Source: Richelia sp. SL_2_1
Lineage (GTDB): Bacteria; Cyanobacteriota; Cyanobacteriia; Cyanobacteriales; Nostocaceae
Assembly: GCA_012033205.1 (NCBI GenBank)
Contig: JAAUSO010000069.1
Span: forward strand, 1-33,715
Direction of reading: 5' to 3'
Length of the DNA: 33,715 nt
Each line of letters starts with the position of its first letter. Position 1 is the stretch's first letter. Below are positions 5,542 through 27,739 of the stretch, in pieces. Both the position numbers and the translations under genes were made by a program. The notes under the pieces are model-generated. The model searched no databases. It was not told the origin of the DNA and worked only from the letters and a program-made list of their open reading frames with translations.

Positions 5542-5915
5542 TTACGGGCGTGCATTAATTACCGCTTCATTGAAAAATTTCATAAATTTCTTTACCCTGC
5601 ATAGTTTTTCTGGCTGGGATTGACTGCGATCGTTAATTCTGGTTATCTCTTTGTGGGTGGAATCTTCAAAGCGAGAGCAACGTAGGTTTTTGTTGCCACA
5701 ACGGCATCAAAGAAGAATTTCTTATGTTAGAATTCTTTGCCAACAGCTAACCACGTTCTTTTTGAAGAAGCATTTTCCACGGTGGACTTATAGCAGTATA
5801 AAGACGGATTATCCCGACAAGCACCACTGGTAACATTCTTTAATGACGGTTTGAGCGGTTATATTCCCAGCTAAATTTGAAACCTTTATATACTTACCGC
5901 TCTCGTAAATGCGAC

Positions 5916-5923
5916 TTAGGAGA
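5916..5923 (+). promoter_or_regulatory. amiC1 ribosome binding site that fixes a GTG start
   Basis: TTAGGAGA lies 6 nt before GTG 5930. An ATG at 5909 in the same frame would place this site inside the gene. The paralogue amiC2 has the same TTAGGAGA followed by GTG, which supports GTG 5930 as the true start. Confidence 0.8.
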
Positions 5924-5929
5924 AACACT

Positions 5930-7825
5930 GTGAAACTACACTGGTTAATACCTGGGACTTTTTTAACTGTCTCCCTGTTATCTTCCCCTGCAAATGCAGC
6001 GAAACTACAATCTTGGAATTTTGACGCTAATCAAAATCAGCTAGAATTTAATACTGATGCTGCGGTACAACCAAAAGCTCAACTAATTTTTAATCCCACT
6101 CGTGTAGTAATTGATTTACCTGGAGTCAAATTCGGTAGTCCGCAATTGAAAAAACCGATCGGTGGTGCTATTAATACCGTTCGTATCGGTCAATTAGATC
6201 CGGAAACTACCCGGATGGTGGTTGAATTAAGTCCCGGCTATACTTTAGATCCAAATCAAATCAAATTTGAAGGAGTAAGTCCCAGTCGTTGGAGAGTAAA
6301 ATTACCATCGCCAGAACTTGAAAAAACAGATTCTGACGAAAGAAATATTTACAGTGTAGTGCGAACCAATAATACTGCACCCAGTAATACATCTAACAGC
6401 AATCAAACGGTAATTCAAACTGGTCAAAAAATTGCTCAAGGAATTGCTCAAATTGAAAGAGTACTTCCAACTGGTGATGGCTTTTTTGTGCGTACCAGTG
6501 GTGGTAAAGCAACGTCTTCAAGAGTTAACCGCAACGGTCAAGAATTGATCAATGTAGATATTTCTGGTGCGACATTATCGTCTAGCTTACCGGGAAACGA
6601 GTTCCCAATGAATCGCTTTGGTGTCAAAGGAATTGAATTTAAGCAGTTAGATTCAACAACCACTCGGATTGTTTTACGGGTAGATAAAAATAGCCCGGAT
6701 TGGCGAGCTACAATCAGCAGCTTTGGTGGGATAGTCTTACTGCCTAATGGTAAAGTTAGCGAATCTTCCCCAAATAGTAATCCCAATCCCCCAGTTAATC
6801 GACCATTACCTTCTCCCTCGCCACCACCAACTATCACAACACAAAATTCTCTCGCTGAAATTGAAGCCGTAGAATTAGATGACAATGGTAGGACATTAAC
6901 TGTTAAAGGCAACAAATCTTTATCTGGAAGCACTAGCCAATGGGACACTCAGAGTGCGATGTACCGTATTTTGATTCCTAATTCTCGGTTATCATCTTCT
7001 GTAAAAGGACCGCAATTTAAACCTAGTAGTCCGGTGTTGCGGGTACTTACGCGACAAGAAAACTCAAATACTGTTGCAATCTACATTTTACCAGCAGCAC
7101 AGGTCAGCTTCGGAAGACTTGATATCAGAGGAGACCGATTAAATTTAGATTTGCAGCGCAACAGTGCAACCAAACCCCCGGTTATTTTACCTCCGATTCC
7201 CAAACCAAATCCGGTAGCGGGTTCGCAACCAGTTACAACTCCTTCCAATCCCAAGCCAAGTCCAGCACCAAGACCAGCCCCTAGGGGACAGGTATTAGTT
7301 ATGATTGATCCAGGACATGGTGGTAAAGATCCTGGCGCAATTGGTATTGGTGGACTGCGAGAAAAAGATGTCATCTTACCCATCAGCCAAAAAGTAGCAG
7401 AAATATTGCGAAAAAATGGAGTCAATGCAGTACTGACTCGTAACACAGATTATTTTGTCAGCCTGCAAGGACGAGTAGATATGTCCGACAAGTCAAATGC
7501 AGATTTATTTGTCAGTATCCATGCTAATTCTATGGGTTTAAGTCGTCCCGATATTAACGGTTTAGAAGTTTATTATTATAACAGTGGTAAACAGTTTGCC
7601 GATACCGTCCGGAGAAGCATTACCCAAAACGTCACAATTAGAGACCGGGGAATCAGAAGTGCTAGATTTTACGTACTCCGTAAAACTTCGATGCCAGCAA
7701 TTCTCGTAGAAGTTGGTTACGTCACAGGTCGTGAAGATGCCGCCAATTTAAATCAAACTGCCTACCGCAATAAAATGGCAGAAGGTATCGCTGATGGTAT
7801 TCTTAAGTACCTGAAACGTAGGTAA
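5930..7825 (+). CDS. amiC1: AmiC1, AMIN-domain N-acetylmuramoyl-L-alanine amidase
   Basis: 631 aa from GTG 5930. The signal peptide MKLHWLIPGTFLTVSLLSS ends near Ala-Asn-Ala. A first AMIN domain (about 25-125) is followed by a second AMIN-like module (about 165-275), a Pro/Ser linker, a third AMIN-like segment (about 305-400), another proline-rich linker and a C-terminal Amidase_3 domain from about residue 455. Zinc ligands are visible: His in DPGHGG, Glu in LREKDV and His in SIHAN. The catalytic Glu is in ILVEVGYVTG. The short distance from SIHAN to that Glu leaves no room for the autoinhibitory helix of enterobacterial AmiC. Family knowledge: such amidases cleave the amide bond between MurNAc and the stem peptide and drill the nanopores in septal peptidoglycan of filamentous cyanobacteria. 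It is tandem with amiC2. Confidence 0.95.
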   Translation: MKLHWLIPGTFLTVSLLSSPANAAKLQSWNFDANQNQLEFNTDAAVQPKAQLIFNPTRVVIDLPGVKFGSPQLKKPIGGAINTVRIGQLDPETTRMVVELSPGYTLDPNQIKFEGVSPSRWRVKLPSPELEKTDSDERNIYSVVRTNNTAPSNTSNSNQTVIQTGQKIAQGIAQIERVLPTGDGFFVRTSGGKATSSRVNRNGQELINVDISGATLSSSLPGNEFPMNRFGVKGIEFKQLDSTTTRIVLRVDKNSPDWRATISSFGGIVLLPNGKVSESSPNSNPNPPVNRPLPSPSPPPTITTQNSLAEIEAVELDDNGRTLTVKGNKSLSGSTSQWDTQSAMYRILIPNSRLSSSVKGPQFKPSSPVLRVLTRQENSNTVAIYILPAAQVSFGRLDIRGDRLNLDLQRNSATKPPVILPPIPKPNPVAGSQPVTTPSNPKPSPAPRPAPRGQVLVMIDPGHGGKDPGAIGIGGLREKDVILPISQKVAEILRKNGVNAVLTRNTDYFVSLQGRVDMSDKSNADLFVSIHANSMGLSRPDINGLEVYYYNSGKQFADTVRRSITQNVTIRDRGIRSARFYVLRKTSMPAILVEVGYVTGREDAANLNQTAYRNKMAEGIADGILKYLKRR

Positions 7826-9016: not shown

Positions 9017-10894
9017 GTGAAAATACACTGGTTAGTATCTGGTACTACTTGTTTATCTGTACTAATGCTATCGTCGCCCGCTCATGGTGCAAAGCTGTCT
9101 TCTTGGCGTTTTAATGCCAATCAAAACCAACTAGAATTTCAAACTGATGGTGCAGTTCAACCCCAAGCACAACTAATTTTTAATCCCACTCGTTTGGTAA
9201 TTGATTTACCAGGAACGACATTTGGAAAACCCCAGTTAACCCAAACAGTTGGTGGTGCGATTCGTTCTATTCGTGTTGGACAATTTGACCCACAAACGGC
9301 TCGTTTAGTTGTGGAAATGAATCCGGGGTATACTCTTGATCCAAACCAAGTAAAATTTGTCGGTCTAAGCCCTACTAACTGGACAGTGCAGCTACCTTCA
9401 GCGAAAGTTCAAGCAAGTGCTGTTGCTCCTAGAAGCATTTTCAGCGTTACACCAACAATCAACACTCCACCATCCAACAGAATTGCTGCTAGCACTTCAA
9501 ATGCAGCCACAAAAATTGAAAGCTTGCAAGTTACCGGAGACGGATTTTTCCTGCGTACCAGCGGTGCTAAACCGAAAATCAAAAATCCGACTCGCGATCG
9601 AGATGAAATTAACATCGACATTTCAGATGCGGCTTTGTCACCAGCACTCCAACGAGAGATATCGGTGAACAAGCACGCTGTTAAGGGCATTGAATTTAGC
9701 GAAATCGATGGTAAATCACCTGGAGTTCGCATGACTTTACGGGTGGACAAAAAGAGCTCCGATTGGCGAGCTACAACTAGCGGTAACAATGGTTTAATCG
9801 TTCTACCCAATCGTTTAAGTTCAGCTATAAGTGGTAGTTCTAATAGTTCAAATAATTCTAATAGTTCTAATTCAAATCAAGTCAGTCAATCGGATTCTTT
9901 CCCCGTTCCACCAATTCCAACTACAAGGAATTCTATCGCAACAATTGAGTCTGTGGAACTAGCCCCGACTAGTACTCAATTACTAATTAGAGGAGATCAA
10001 AATTTATCTGCTGTTGGTGGTTGGGATAGACAAACCGGATTGTACCGGATCACCGTTGATAATGCAAAATTAGCTCCTAAAGTTAGAGGTCCACAATTTA
10101 CTGCCAGTAGTCCGGTTTTGCGAGTACGTCTACAGCAACTTCCAAATAACAAAGTTGCGATCTTTGTCCAGCCTGCATCTGGAGTACAAATTGGTGAACT
10201 CAATCAACTTAGCAATCAGCTGTTGTCGTTAGAATTACAACGTACTCGGCGAACTATCCCTCCCACTGGATCGACTGGTTTACCTCCCATATCTGAAACA
10301 ATTCCTCTACCGAATCGTCCAATCATTACTCTGCCACCAGAAAGTCCAAATAATAGTAGGGTTGTAGTCATGATTGACCCAGGACATGGTGGTAAAGACC
10401 CTGGTGCCATTGGTATCGGTGGGTTGCAAGAAAAGGACGTAATTTTACCTATTAGTTTAAAAGTTGCCGAAATTTTGCAGCAAAACGGTATTCAAGCAGT
10501 ACTGACTCGCAACACGGATTATTTTGTCAGTCTCCAAGGACGAGTCGATATGGCTGAACGAGCTAATGCTGGTTTATTTGTGAGTATTCACGCTAATTCT
10601 GTAGGCTTAAGTCGTCCTGATGTCAGCGGTTTAGAAGTTTACTATTATAGCAGTGGTCTCGGTCTTGCTCAAAATGTTCGTAGCAGTATATTAAATACTG
10701 TGAATGTTAGAGACCGAGGAGTACGAAAAGCTAGCTTTTACGTACTCAGAAAAAGTTCTATGCCTTCAATTCTTGTGGAAGTAGGTTATGTTACGGGACG
10801 AGATGATGCGGCAAAATTAGCTTCTCCTCAATATCGAGACGAAATGGCACAAGGTATTGCTAATGGGATTTTAAATCATATTAGGAGAAGGTAA
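9017..10894 (+). CDS. amiC2: AmiC2 (HcwA-type), AMIN-domain N-acetylmuramoyl-L-alanine amidase
   Basis: 625-aa paralogue of the upstream amiC1 with the same architecture. The signal peptide (MKIHWLVSGTTCLSVLMLSS, ending near AHGA) is followed by AMIN-like modules, a low-complexity linker and Amidase_3 from about residue 450. The same catalytic set is present: DPGHGG, LQEKDV, SIHAN and ILVEVGYVTG. The clearest difference is the linker near residues 270-295, which is Ser/Asn-rich here and Pro-rich in AmiC1. The gene starts at GTG. In Anabaena and Nostoc punctiforme the corresponding protein is needed for filament integrity, septal nanopores and cell-cell exchange, and hence for heterocyst formation (family knowledge). 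It is separated from amiC1 by 1.19 kb that includes a terminator, so the two are probably regulated independently. Confidence 0.95.
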   Translation: MKIHWLVSGTTCLSVLMLSSPAHGAKLSSWRFNANQNQLEFQTDGAVQPQAQLIFNPTRLVIDLPGTTFGKPQLTQTVGGAIRSIRVGQFDPQTARLVVEMNPGYTLDPNQVKFVGLSPTNWTVQLPSAKVQASAVAPRSIFSVTPTINTPPSNRIAASTSNAATKIESLQVTGDGFFLRTSGAKPKIKNPTRDRDEINIDISDAALSPALQREISVNKHAVKGIEFSEIDGKSPGVRMTLRVDKKSSDWRATTSGNNGLIVLPNRLSSAISGSSNSSNNSNSSNSNQVSQSDSFPVPPIPTTRNSIATIESVELAPTSTQLLIRGDQNLSAVGGWDRQTGLYRITVDNAKLAPKVRGPQFTASSPVLRVRLQQLPNNKVAIFVQPASGVQIGELNQLSNQLLSLELQRTRRTIPPTGSTGLPPISETIPLPNRPIITLPPESPNNSRVVVMIDPGHGGKDPGAIGIGGLQEKDVILPISLKVAEILQQNGIQAVLTRNTDYFVSLQGRVDMAERANAGLFVSIHANSVGLSRPDVSGLEVYYYSSGLGLAQNVRSSILNTVNVRDRGVRKASFYVLRKSSMPSILVEVGYVTGRDDAAKLASPQYRDEMAQGIANGILNHIRRR

Positions 10895-15410: not shown

Positions 15411-16600
15411 ATGAAATCAGTCGCGACCACAACTATTCAGGGAGAAAATTCTATCGGTGTGGAGGTGATATTTCAACTCCTATTCGGAGAACTTAAATCT
15501 TCGACTAAAGCTTCAGATTCTAATTGCCATGAAGTCGCAACCCGAATCGCAGCCGAAGTCCTACGAATTTGCCATGAAAGCAAACGTATCCAAGCTTCTG
15601 GGGACATCAAAAGTTCGGCGATCGCCCTAGCGAAACACCGGCTATCTCAGACATTAAGATACTACCAGTTAGGTTCCAATCGAGGTAGGGTAGAACTGCA
15701 CAGTACTCTGAGCGCAATTATTTATCGTTATATTAATCCGCCCAATAAACAACTGAGTTATCAAGGGCGGTTGGGTGTAATTGAAGATTTTCTGCAAAAT
15801 TTTTATTTGGAAGCACTGAATGCTTGCCGAAGAGAAAATAAACTCGAACCTACATATCGTCCCCAGACTCTTTTAGAATTAGCGGAGTACATGGCGTTTA
15901 CCGAACGCTATGCCAAAAGACGCATTCCTTTACCAGGAAGACAACAGCAGTTGATTATCCTGCGAGCGCAAACTTTTTCTCAACAACAGCCTCCAGAAAC
16001 CTGTGTTGATATAGAAAAAGCCGCAGAAGGTAGCAGCAATGATGGTGATGGTTCTTGGGAAGATCCAGCCGTACAACAATTAAGAACGGCAATGGCATCT
16101 CAAACCGAACCGGAACCCCCGGAAGAAACTTTACGTTCGGTAGTCATTAACGAGTTAATGAGTTATCTTGAGGAACGACAACAAGGAGACTGTGCTGATT
16201 ACTTTGCTCTACGCCTAAAAGATTTATCTGCTCAAGAAATTGAGGCAATTTTAGGTTTAACTGCTCGTCAGAGAGATTATTTACAGCAACGTTTCAAATA
16301 TCATCTAATTAGGTTTGCCTTGCTGCACCGTTGGGAATTGGTTCACGAATGGTTAGAAGCCGATTTGCGTAACAATTTAGGTTTGACGGAACAGCAATGG
16401 CAAGTTTACACACAACAACTTGACGATAAACAACGTTGTTTATTAGAACTAAAACAGCAAGGTCAAGCTGATGAAAGAATTGCCAAAACCTTGGGGTTGT
16501 CGATGGCGCAACTGCAAAAAGGTGGTTCAAAATTCTCGAACAAGCTTGGGAAATTCGTAACTCTTTTATGTCCGGATCAAGTGCATCTACTCATGAATAG
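15411..16600 (+). CDS. hetZ: HetZ, heterocyst differentiation regulator (C-terminus frameshifted)
   Basis: Early regulator of heterocyst differentiation. The N-terminal part (IGVEVIFQLLFGELK, GSNRGRVELHSTLSAIIYRY) and an HTH-like C-terminal half (LSAQEIEAILGLTARQRDY, LLHRWELVHEWLEA) match HetZ as I remember it. As sequenced the frame does not end at a HetZ stop. After LQK (codon 16518-16520) it continues as GGSKFSN and runs into the patU frame, giving one ORF to 17573. Adding one A to the five-A run at 16516-16520 restores QKRWFKILEQAWEIRNSF and then MSGSSASTHE, with a TAG at 16598-16600. This resembles the normal HetZ end and gives 396 aa. The stop then overlaps the patU ATG. Either this is a real one-base deletion that fuses HetZ to PatU or it is a sequence error. 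Confidence 0.87.
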
Positions 16601-17573
16601 TGACACAGAATCCTTACAAAACCAATTACTCGCTTGGTTGTTAGCAGATAATGCAGCAACCGAGGAGGATTTTTTGGTCGAATGTGAGGAAATTAACGGG
16701 GCTAAAACATACACAGAAAACACTGCTTCTACAAGCGGTGCTTCTGAGTCAGATTCGATGTCCTATCCTTTTTTTCAACTGGGAGAAATTCCTACTGTGC
16801 AAACACGTTTCCAAGCCGTTCTTAAGCGTCGGTTACAAAGTCAAGTCCAAGATAATCCACCGTTATTCCCCTGGGAAACACAATTAGTGGATTATCCCGA
16901 TTACATAGACAATTTATCTATGAACTGGGTTCCCGCTCATCCTTGGGCGGCACAACAGTCTAAACTCAGTTTGCCAATTGCGATACCGGAGAAAATTTTT
17001 CAGCAGTTATTGGCAAAGTGTCAAGAGTTGCTTTCGTTTCCAGTTCCATTGGGAGCCAAACTTGTGGGAGTGGTGGAAAGTTTATTCCCCAACGAACCGC
17101 AAATGCTCAACGATTTAGCCGGAATGGTACTCAGAAGTCCATATCGTTCTGCGGATACTTTAGAAAGGATGCCTTATGTCGAAGGCAACTACTCGGATTT
17201 GCAACCGCGTCAACAAATGGCATTATCATTGTTGGCTGCTAAACAATTGTTAGAAAATCTCACTTTATCTGTTGATGCCAGCGAAGAGTATGTCTCAAGG
17301 CAATGGCTAACCAACTTTGGTACCGTGACTTTGAGCGTAAAATACGACCAAGTTGCCCAAACACTGCGGGTTGAAGCTGAATTACCCCATCCCGGACAAG
17401 TGAAACTTGAAGGAGATAATTGTGTTCAGGTTGCAAAATCTTCAAATCAAGGAATTGTCAGCTTAGAACTGAATTCAGTTCAACAACAAGCAAATTATAC
17501 ATTGGCAGTTGAGCTAAATGACATGGATACTCAACCGCTGTACTTTACAATTGTGCCAACTTCTGCTTGTTAA
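16593..17573 (+). CDS. patU: PatU, heterocyst pattern protein
   Basis: 326 aa from ATG 16593 (MNSDTESLQNQLLAWLLADN), which overlaps the restored hetZ stop by 8 nt, the usual coupled arrangement. In Anabaena PCC 7120 the gene is split into patU5 and patU3; other filamentous cyanobacteria carry it whole, as here. The protein has an acidic and Ser/Thr-rich N-terminal third (GAKTYTENTASTSGASESDS), a middle with FPWETQLVDYPDY and HPWAAQQSKLSLP, a helical region (IFQQLLAKCQELLSFPVPLG) and a beta-rich C-terminus. It influences heterocyst spacing together with hetZ (family knowledge); its biochemical role is unknown. In the present sequence it is the C-terminal part of a 720-aa ORF starting at hetZ. 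Confidence 0.85.
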   Translation: MNSDTESLQNQLLAWLLADNAATEEDFLVECEEINGAKTYTENTASTSGASESDSMSYPFFQLGEIPTVQTRFQAVLKRRLQSQVQDNPPLFPWETQLVDYPDYIDNLSMNWVPAHPWAAQQSKLSLPIAIPEKIFQQLLAKCQELLSFPVPLGAKLVGVVESLFPNEPQMLNDLAGMVLRSPYRSADTLERMPYVEGNYSDLQPRQQMALSLLAAKQLLENLTLSVDASEEYVSRQWLTNFGTVTLSVKYDQVAQTLRVEAELPHPGQVKLEGDNCVQVAKSSNQGIVSLELNSVQQQANYTLAVELNDMDTQPLYFTIVPTSAC

Positions 17574-17818: not shown

Positions 17819-20129
17819 ATGAAGAATAGGTTTAGGGGTCTACACAATATAGGGTACTGGCGGCAAAAAATTTCCAATTCACCGCCGATAGAAATAGAAG
17901 ATTCAATTGTTTTCAGGGTGCTAGTTAGCGCTTTGGTAATCATCGGAATTGTCGCGACGGATATAGCTGCTGAAACAACTGGCAGTTTTTGGGCAGTTCC
18001 TTTAAGTTTAGTGGGCGGAGTTTGGAGTTATTACCGTCGTCGTCAACCCAATGTAGCGGTCAAATTCTGTATCGCTATCGGAATGTTATTAGCACTCGGT
18101 GCGTTTTTCGGGCGATTGGTAGGTGAACTCAATGATACCCGGCTAATTCTCGCAGAATTATTGATTCAACTCCAGGTGCTGCATAGTTTCGATATGCCTC
18201 GTCGTAAAGATTTGGGATATTCGATGATCATTGGGTTGATTTTAATCGGTGTAGCAGCAACCCTGAGTCAAACTTTAGCTTTTGCACCAGTGTTGCTGCT
18301 CTTTTTAGCTATCGTCTTACCGACTTTGGTATTAGATTATCGTTCGCGATTGGGTTTAGAACCCCTAACAATTAAAAAACAATCATCAAAAAATCAAGAT
18401 TCTGCGATTTTTAATTTCAAATTTTTAGTTATAATTTTTTAATCATAATAATTATAGGACTGAGCATTTTCGCCGTTTTACCGAGGTTTCCCGGTTATGG
18501 CTTGCGGACATTTCCGGTGAGTTCACCTATCGAGGTACAAGGCGATTTTACCGGACGCAAAATTGTCAATCCTGGTTATGTCCGTTCCGGTAATAATAAC
18601 GGCTCACAAGGTAGCAATGGCGACGGTACTTCTCAAGGCGCAAAGGGCGATCGCCAACAGGTTGATGACAGCTTTTATTACGGATTTAATACCAAAATTA
18701 ATCAGAATTTACGCGGAGAAATGAAACCCAAAGTTGTGATGCGGGTACGTTCTCAAGCAGAAGGTTTCTGGCGAGTTTTGGCATTTGATCGTTATACGGG
18801 TAAGGGATGGGAAATTTCTCGCAACGACAAAGTGAAGCGGTTGCAACGTTCTCCTTTCTCCTATCAAACTTTTCTGGAAACTCCTGTAATTATTGGTAAA
18901 ACCAAAGAAATAGTCCAAACTTACACGGTAGTGTCGGAATTACCTAACTTGATTCCGGCAATGACATATCCCAAAGAAATCTATTTTCCCACACCAATAA
19001 TAGCCGTCGATACAGAAGATGGTTTGCGATCGCCGGTTGGTTTATCCGAAGGTCTTACTTATACCGTACTATCTGAAGTCCCCTATCGCGATCGCACTAG
19101 GCTCGCAAAAACTGGAAGCCAATATCCAAATAGTATTACAAATTATTACCTCCAGGTTCCTCCTGAAATAGATGACAAAGTTAAACAACTTACCGAAGAA
19201 ATTTTAGCTGACTACAATCGTCAACAAATAGGTAAAACACAGAAGAGTCTTTCCTCACCTTATGAAATCGCTCTTTACCTAGCTCAATACTTGAAACAAA
19301 ACTACACAGTACCTCAAAATCCGTTTTCCATTCCATTATTAAATGATGATGATGACTTGGTAGAAGCTTTCCTATTTAAAAACAAAGGAGGACTACCAGA
19401 TCAATTTTCTACAGTTTTAACAGTAATGTTGCGTTCTATTGGGATTCCAGCGCGGTTAGTTGCAGGATTTGCCCCAGGAGATTTTAATCCATTTACAGGG
19501 ATGTACGTAGTCCGGAATACGGACGCTTACGCAATGACGGAAGTCTACTTCCCTAAATATGGTTGGTTTGCTTTCGATCCTATACCCAATCATCCTTAAT
19601 TCCTCCATCCATCGAAGAAACTCAAACTTTTTCCGTTTTAAAACAATTTTGGAATTGGATTGCAGGTTGGCTTCCTTCTCCAGTCACAGGATTGCTCAAT
19701 AATCTATTTGGCAAAATATTTAGCATTCTTGTAAAGCTTTTATCCTGGTTTTTATCGTTATTCTCCCAAGGTATTTTCGGGATATTAACTGGATTAAGTT
19801 TCTTAACGACAATTTCTTTGTTCAGTTGGTTGGGTTGGGATAAATGGCGCAAATGGCGCAAATGGCAATTTTTAGGTAAATTGCAGCCAATGGAAAGACT
19901 TTATCAACAAATGCTTGAGTGGACTGCCGAAAAAGGATTGACGAAACATCAAGCACAAACTCCTTTGGAATATGCCCAGATATTACAGCAGTATCATTCT
20001 CCCCAAATAGCTGAAGTCATAGAAGAAATTTCTCAAGCTTATGTGAGTTGGCGTTATGGGGATAATAACCCTAACTTAAACAATCTGCACCAAAAATGGC
20101 AGCAACTTAGAAACAGTTCAAAAAACTAA
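17819..20129 (+). pseudogene. TgpA-like membrane transglutaminase homologue (DUF3488/TGase-core/DUF4129), two frameshifts
   Basis: One gene read in three frames: 17819-18442 (five membrane segments and part of a sixth), 18502-19599 (periplasmic transglutaminase-like core) and 19563-20129 (last membrane segment and DUF4129-like tail). One T added to the six-T run at 18435-18440 joins parts 1 and 2 through a continuous sixth helix ending in AVLPRFPGYG. One T added near 19594-19596 joins DPIPNHP to LIPPSIEE. The repaired product is 770 aa. The catalytic triad looks lost independently of the frameshifts: the Cys position reads GGLPDQFST (Cys to Pro) and the His position reads DAYAMTEVYF (His to Tyr), while the Asp in FAFDP remains. 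I believe cyanobacterial relatives share this, so the intact protein would be a non-catalytic member. It follows patU by 245 bp. Substrate and role are unknown. Confidence 0.85.
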
Positions 20130-26800: not shown

Positions 26801-27203
26801 TTTTTAATCTAAGACTTGCTTGTTGTTGTAAAAATTAATGCTTTGGCTACACAAACCGGCACCCGCCGTAAGGTGGGTTTTAAATTAACTAGTCCACGCA
26901 GGTGGGCTTTGTTTGTGTAGTAGCGGTTTAAACCGCCGGATACTTTTCAAACATCCTCTTAGATATTAGGGTAGCTTTTAGTTAATTTTTACGCTTGTTC
27001 TGTCAACAAGATGCTAAAGTTGAAAATAATTGATGTTAAACACGCTTATTCTTGGCTAGCATCACCTATCAAAATCTCTGAAAACCAACTCTCCAGAGTT
27101 AGTGTAGAGCTTTGTAGACAGCTTGCTGTGATGCGTGTCGCTCAATATGCACGTAACCAAACGTGAAAACCGTCTTCAGTTATACTACCCGAACCAGGCT
27201 GGC
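26801..27203. other. Divergent spacer with dispersed repeat
   Basis: About 400 bp. It holds the promoter of the ACT-like gene (minus), a palindromic dispersed repeat (26841-26940) and the upstream region of the GNAT gene. An open frame from GTG 27135 runs into the GNAT start, but the extra residues do not look conserved. Confidence 0.5.
26841..26940. repeat. Palindromic interspersed repeat (Nostocales type)
   Basis: A 100-bp element with outer arms CTACACAAA (26848-26856) and TTTGTGTAG (26912-26920). Internal hairpins have CACCCGCC/GGTGGG arms, and a trailing GCGGTTTAAACCGC palindrome lies at 26923-26936. Sequences of the type CACGCAGGTGGGCTTTGTTT are, from memory, abundant between genes in Nostocales genomes. 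It is non-coding and probably a non-autonomous mobile or REP-like element. Confidence 0.7.

Positions 27204-27739
<536 letters not shown>

Follow-up and report, generated by a model that had tools for sequence, protein, structure and literature searches.

Gene arrangement at the hetZ-patU locus

The window analyzed here is the whole stretch of 33,715 nucleotides from Richelia sp. SL_2_1 (contig JAAUSO010000069.1; genome G000). In the assembly letters, positions 15411-17573 of the forward strand form one open reading frame of 720 amino acids (ORF listing of the window), and the features at and within it are as follows:

15411-16520, + strand: hetZ minus its last codons (NCBIfam NF037963); the frame exits HetZ after LQK
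16516-16520, + strand: run of five A with an apparent one-base dropout
16520-16600, + strand: displaced 3' end of hetZ, RWFKILEQAWEIRNSFMSGSSASTHE, with TAG at 16598-16600; the corresponding tail is in frame in relatives
16571-16620, + strand: hetZ/patU junction block that opens with TCCGGA and whose DNA is conserved (96% mean column identity)
16593-17573, + strand: patU, its ATG overlapping the hetZ stop (ATGAATAG); called from the ORF and from homologues at hetZ loci, named by position and literature

The upstream part of the frame belongs to the HetZ family: in a profile search, the 369 residues before the break matched NCBIfam NF037963 (heterocyst_HetZ) over model positions 1-351 of 366, with an E-value of 1.2e-180 and 600.2 bits (cut-off 550). 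Residues 1-370 of HetZ are 99-100% identical to those of the two nearest relatives, G001 and G002. The assembly letters hold no complete in-frame HetZ C-terminal part, the tail being found in another frame. More specifically, the A-run stands in the context CTGC-AAAAA-GGTGG and the joined frame reads ...LQKGGSKFSNKLGKFVTLLCPDQVHLLMNSDTESLQ across the break, while the window letters spell the tail RWFKILEQAWEIRNSFMSGSSASTHE* in the other frame (codons AGG TGG TTC AAA ATT CTC GAA CAA GCT TGG GAA ATT CGT AAC TCT TTT ATG TCC GGA TCA AGT GCA TCT ACT CAT GAA TAG). This displaced tail is not a product of chance, because the corresponding tail closes HetZ in frame in the relatives; judged by comparison with these sequences, its out-of-frame position is very probably an artefact. 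The patU ATG (16593-16595) overlaps the hetZ TAG, the overlap amounting to 8 bases. The description of the locus given by a sequence-only reading is thus borne out, both for hetZ and patU being read as one 720-aa ORF and for a HetZ C-terminus lying in the other frame.

The downstream part has a homologue at each of the 109 hetZ loci listed, with alignments longer than 250 amino acids and 49-99% identity. It is therefore the ORF directly 3' of hetZ that is conserved among filamentous cyanobacteria, at 109 of 109 loci listed. No Pfam or NCBIfam model was matched by this part at E ≤ 0.01, and the libraries possibly hold no PatU model; we name the gene patU by its position and by the literature (excerpts of PMC7377430). 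It is intact, with 98.8% identity over 326 amino acids to the nearest copy.

The hetZ-patU junction in related genomes

Two sets of loci were compared with the window, one of 30 hetZ loci kept from a search of 60 genomes and the other consisting of the best 80 of 545 confirmed stretches. Together they provide 109 loci, in which some genomes recur, and dropping 17 duplicates leaves 92 distinct sequences. The remaining hetZ-level rows of the 60-genome search gave 19 further, more distant loci. hetZ has its own stop at all 109 loci listed (92 distinct sequences; HetZ of 389-401 amino acids) and in all 19 further genomes (384-402 amino acids). For one hetZ of a more distant genome (L175, genome G037) a TAA is flagged inside the gene, and the own-stop call was taken from the 3' end only. 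None of the 128 hetZ loci listed, some genomes being counted twice, carries a HetZ-PatU fusion, so that no independent relative shows a natural one, nor is such a fusion the subject of any title or abstract opening among the papers listed for hetZ and frameshifts.

The run at 16516-16520 has six A in all seven same-genus genomes listed (L004-L010) versus five in the window, and ATGAATAG, the overlap of hetZ stop and patU ATG, is present at 92 of the 92 distinct loci. The sequence-only reading was therefore right to place a one-base loss in this run, and right that one more A gives the classical arrangement with the hetZ stop over the patU ATG at 16593. It had also named beforehand what would speak against a real fusion, namely six A in close relatives together with an unmodified sequence from the same strain; of this, the part concerning the relatives is what we find.

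Among the 92 distinct loci the A-run is not conserved, and at least 54 of them carry CAAAAACG at the site. This argues against another suggestion of the same reading, that slippage at the run yields both separate and fused products; such slippage could be of RNA polymerase or take the form of ribosomal frameshifting, and be either regulated or leaky. In its favor are the presence of AAAAAA in the genus (7/7 listed) and the patU frame of G001 and G002, which is open upstream of the ATG as part of a 367-aa ORF spanning the run, so that a +1 shift at the run would enter patU directly. The A AAA AAG heptamer is a motif for -1 frameshifting; here, however, CAA AAA AGG is out of phase with it and patU lies in the +1 frame. 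Six A is moreover a short run for polymerase slippage. With no fused locus among the 128 listed and with dropouts of the same kind in unrelated genes (see below), the suggestion is unsupported, and we regard it as barely conceivable.

Within the aligned hetZ region no DNA is more conserved than the junction itself. The block at 16571-16620 averages 96% identity per column, versus 87% over all positions and 71% over hetZ third positions, and the eight highest-ranking 30-base windows begin at 16580-16589. All 92 distinct sequences contain the hexamer TCCGGA, as do 15 of the 19 further genomes (6/6 of the same family and 9/13 of other families); these counts, like those for the block, are inflated by kinship among the sequences. 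In the window the hexamer is read as the codons TCC GGA, even though TCC makes up 12% of Ser codons and GGA 20% of Gly codons in the hetZ body. The hexamer is not rare in itself, with 8 occurrences in the window for 4.5 expected. At three loci (L011, L086 and L100) HetZ ends sooner, and the part of the block that lies past its stop is still largely preserved. TCCGGA is the hexamer of the DIF1 motif of HetZ-dependent, heterocyst-specific promoters (excerpts of PMC6133370 and PMC7377430); DIF1 at -35 is insufficient alone for heterocyst specificity and the -10 region matters (excerpts of PMC6133370). The excerpted texts of PMC6133370, PMC7377430 and PMC10287535 hold no description of TCCGGA at the hetZ/patU junction, and the names hetZ and patU have 0 occurrences in the excerpts of the last. 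From its conservation, the block may be a candidate internal promoter or another DNA or RNA signal, or may be partly double coding; plain double coding can explain part of it if translation of patU begins at the GTG at 16581, upstream of the ATG. We find this block more interesting than the apparent fusion.

One-base deletions in the window and across the genome

The window, G001 and G002 were aligned together (pairwise identity 95.3-95.8%; the window is 95.4% identical to G001 and 95.8% to G002 over ~33 kb), and each isolated one-base gap was credited to the genome that deviates from the other two. Twelve deletions and two insertions are specific to the window; three deletions and three insertions are specific to G001 and four and four to G002, none of these in marked genes. 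Three of the 12 window deletions fall in marked genes, once in hetZ and twice in a TgpA-like gene, and nine were tallied as non-coding, a share above the expectation for purely random error. A fourth genic deletion, near 27320, breaks a GNAT gene and entered the non-coding tally because this gene is truncated in the window. The two further genes are:

17819-20129, + strand: TgpA/transglutaminase-like gene with two one-base deletions (18432 and 19596) absent from G001 and G002
27147-27736, + strand: GNAT acetyltransferase gene with GG reduced to G near 27320; Acetyltransf_1 in the intact G001 copy

The intact G001 copy of the TgpA-like gene carries TgpA_N, Transglut_core and DUF4129, and the alignment suggests that the breaks in the window copy are probably the same assembly artefact as in hetZ. 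At 18432, 19596 and 27320, three of the four genic dropouts, the run involved is just one to three bases long, and within the four, three cluster in 3.1 kb; another error source, local quality or a real local change may therefore contribute. The loss at 27320 directly adjoins GCGATCGC, which we take to be HIP1, and a T5 to T4 dropout in stretch L132 also abuts GCGATCGC; these two cases might reflect a methylation-linked base-calling error. Elsewhere in the window, 5909-7825 and 9017-10894 are neighboring related genes, presumably AMIN/N-acetylmuramoyl-L-alanine amidases, and each matches in parts the G001 counterpart of the other at 71-76% DNA identity.

For the genome at large, the sample comprised the window and 20 other stretches of G000 (about 261 kb). 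Counterparts were located by protein tags in 32 stretches of G001 and G002 (18 and 14), to which the hetZ contigs were added. For L124, L132, L135 and L136 the tags gave weak mapping or none; the L132 and L136 regions were included, and L124 and L135 excluded. ORFs of one genome were aligned to the DNA of another to score frame changes, and genes were counted only if aligned at ≥80% over 85% of their length. On this basis, 16 of 132 genes are frame-changed in G000 when G001 ORFs are used and 11 of 107 when G002 ORFs are used, three of each in the window. The controls gave 1/129 and 0/92 for G001 and 2/107 and 1/94 for G002, counts that are, if anything, too high, because the one change of G001 and one of the two of G002, scored with G000 ORFs, mirror the pgeF change of G000. 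Fisher's exact test for 16/132 (G000) versus 1/129 (G001) gives p = 1.8e-4.

Counted as isolated out-of-frame coding indels, G000 has 17 deletions and 1 insertion of one base relative to G001, together with 1 deletion of two bases and 1 insertion of four; relative to G002 it has 16 one-base deletions and 1 insertion. The hetZ deletion enters both comparisons twice, since the relatives have two overlapping ORFs across the site. Between G001 and G002 there are only one or two such indels. Runs of 6-8 A or T hold 12 of the 17 one-base deletions seen against G001 and 9 of the 16 seen against G002. Internal stops by substitution are found in 1/130 and 0/105 genes of G000 and in 0-1 of 94-131 in the controls, showing no nonsense excess. 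As far as these alignments tell, the G000 pattern is one of base under-calling and not of gene decay. Local decay alone was considered as an explanation and fails, because deletions of the same class occur on other contigs.

The frame-changed genes include two sigma factors, rsmG, hslO (whose change is not among the one-base deletions listed), pgeF and chlM. One frame-changed gene is integrase-like, with 88-89% identity, and may be truly broken; part of the frame changes in the sample could thus be genuine. In the sole chlM above the family cut-off in the genome, A7 is reduced to A6 (stretch L118, G000:C15, near 1416-1440). The frame shifts at about residue 206 of 228 and the profile match ends at position 195 of 218; because the change touches just the ~22 last residues, loss of chlM function is putative. 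Since about one in ten aligned genes changes frame in this assembly, its other 'pseudogenes' and split genes are to be distrusted.

Shortening also depends on run length. Among coding A/T runs of equal length in both relatives, 0/162, 2/42, 3/13 and 0/2 are one base shorter in G000 at lengths 5, 6, 7 and 8, compared with 0/38, 0/11 and 0/2 at lengths 6, 7 and 8 in each control. Over all aligned DNA, the runs one base shorter in G000 number 3/96, 5/36 and 4/10 at lengths 6, 7 and 8 versus G001, and 5/98, 4/39 and 7/12 versus G002. The control between G001 and G002 gave 0/65, 0/25 and 0/7 at these lengths in one direction, and runs of G001 against G002 gave 3/62, 0/24 and 0/7, with one run two bases shorter. 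The contraction rate at length 6 is thus a few per cent only, and because over all DNA it is no higher than in one control, the excess in G000 comes from runs of 7-8 and from coding DNA.

Origin of the joined frame

We conclude with high confidence, from comparison of the assembly with its relatives, that the 720-aa HetZ-PatU frame is spurious, created in the draft assembly by homopolymer under-calling, and that the organism would have an ordinary overlapping hetZ-patU pair. One A of AAAAAA at the hetZ end would have been dropped by the sequencing or consensus step, and without this A hetZ and patU read as one frame. The deletion would accordingly be technical and absent from the cell. In the organism hetZ very probably ends in RWFKILEQAWEIRNSFMSGSSASTHE and, as in the relatives, has a stop (TAG) that overlaps the patU ATG; HetZ and PatU would then be made as separate proteins, and the 8-base overlap suggests that translation of patU is probably coupled to that of hetZ. 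Recognizing this spares two pattern-formation genes from being annotated as a false gene fusion.

The sequence-only reading had instead considered a real HetZ-PatU fusion. In this case a true one-base deletion, possibly specific to the culture or the lineage, would leave the strain with a fused protein without the last HetZ helix and tail, and heterocyst formation would perhaps be altered. Cultured strains can lose heterocyst function. A true deletion would agree with a frame that runs open through patU without a stop and with the intactness of patU. Also in its favor, real one-base indels are seen outside coding DNA in each of the three genomes, and over all DNA the contraction of A/T runs of length 6 is about equal in G001 against G002 and in G000. 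Yet like deletions affect many unrelated genes, even the only chlM above the cut-off, with no excess of nonsense changes; HetZ before the break, nearly identical to its nearest relatives, shows no further sign of decay; and no listed locus is fused. A real fusion in a strain otherwise so near its relatives is less likely than an error, and the fusion claim is left unsupported; we think a true deletion quite unlikely.

Were it real, the fusion would be consequential, because in two-hybrid assays HetZ without residues 289-401 no longer binds PatU3 and because hetZ and patU3 have opposite actions (excerpts of PMC7377430). A single polypeptide would then tether the activator HetZ to the inhibitor PatU, without the last part of the portion of HetZ linked to PatU binding, an outcome that we hold to be very unlikely. 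If true, nature would have tied a heterocyst activator to its own inhibitor, which would offer a natural test of the need for free HetZ and PatU in patterning.

The reading that we favor, under-calling of one A, can be set beside two known systems. Homopolymer indel errors are a known class of artefacts of draft genomes. Like these, the changes seen here are one-base deletions that are commoner in longer A/T runs, that affect unrelated genes and that come with no excess of nonsense changes; unlike these, several dropouts lie outside long runs, including three of the window's four genic ones. The gene order resembles the hetZ-patU pair known from filamentous cyanobacteria, such as Anabaena hetZ-patU5-patU3, in that HetZ is recognized by its family model, patU lies directly 3' of it and the hetZ stop overlaps the patU ATG. 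It differs in that here a missing A joins both frames, in the assembly letters only, whereas in Anabaena 7120 it is patU that is split, into two pieces (excerpts of PMC7377430).
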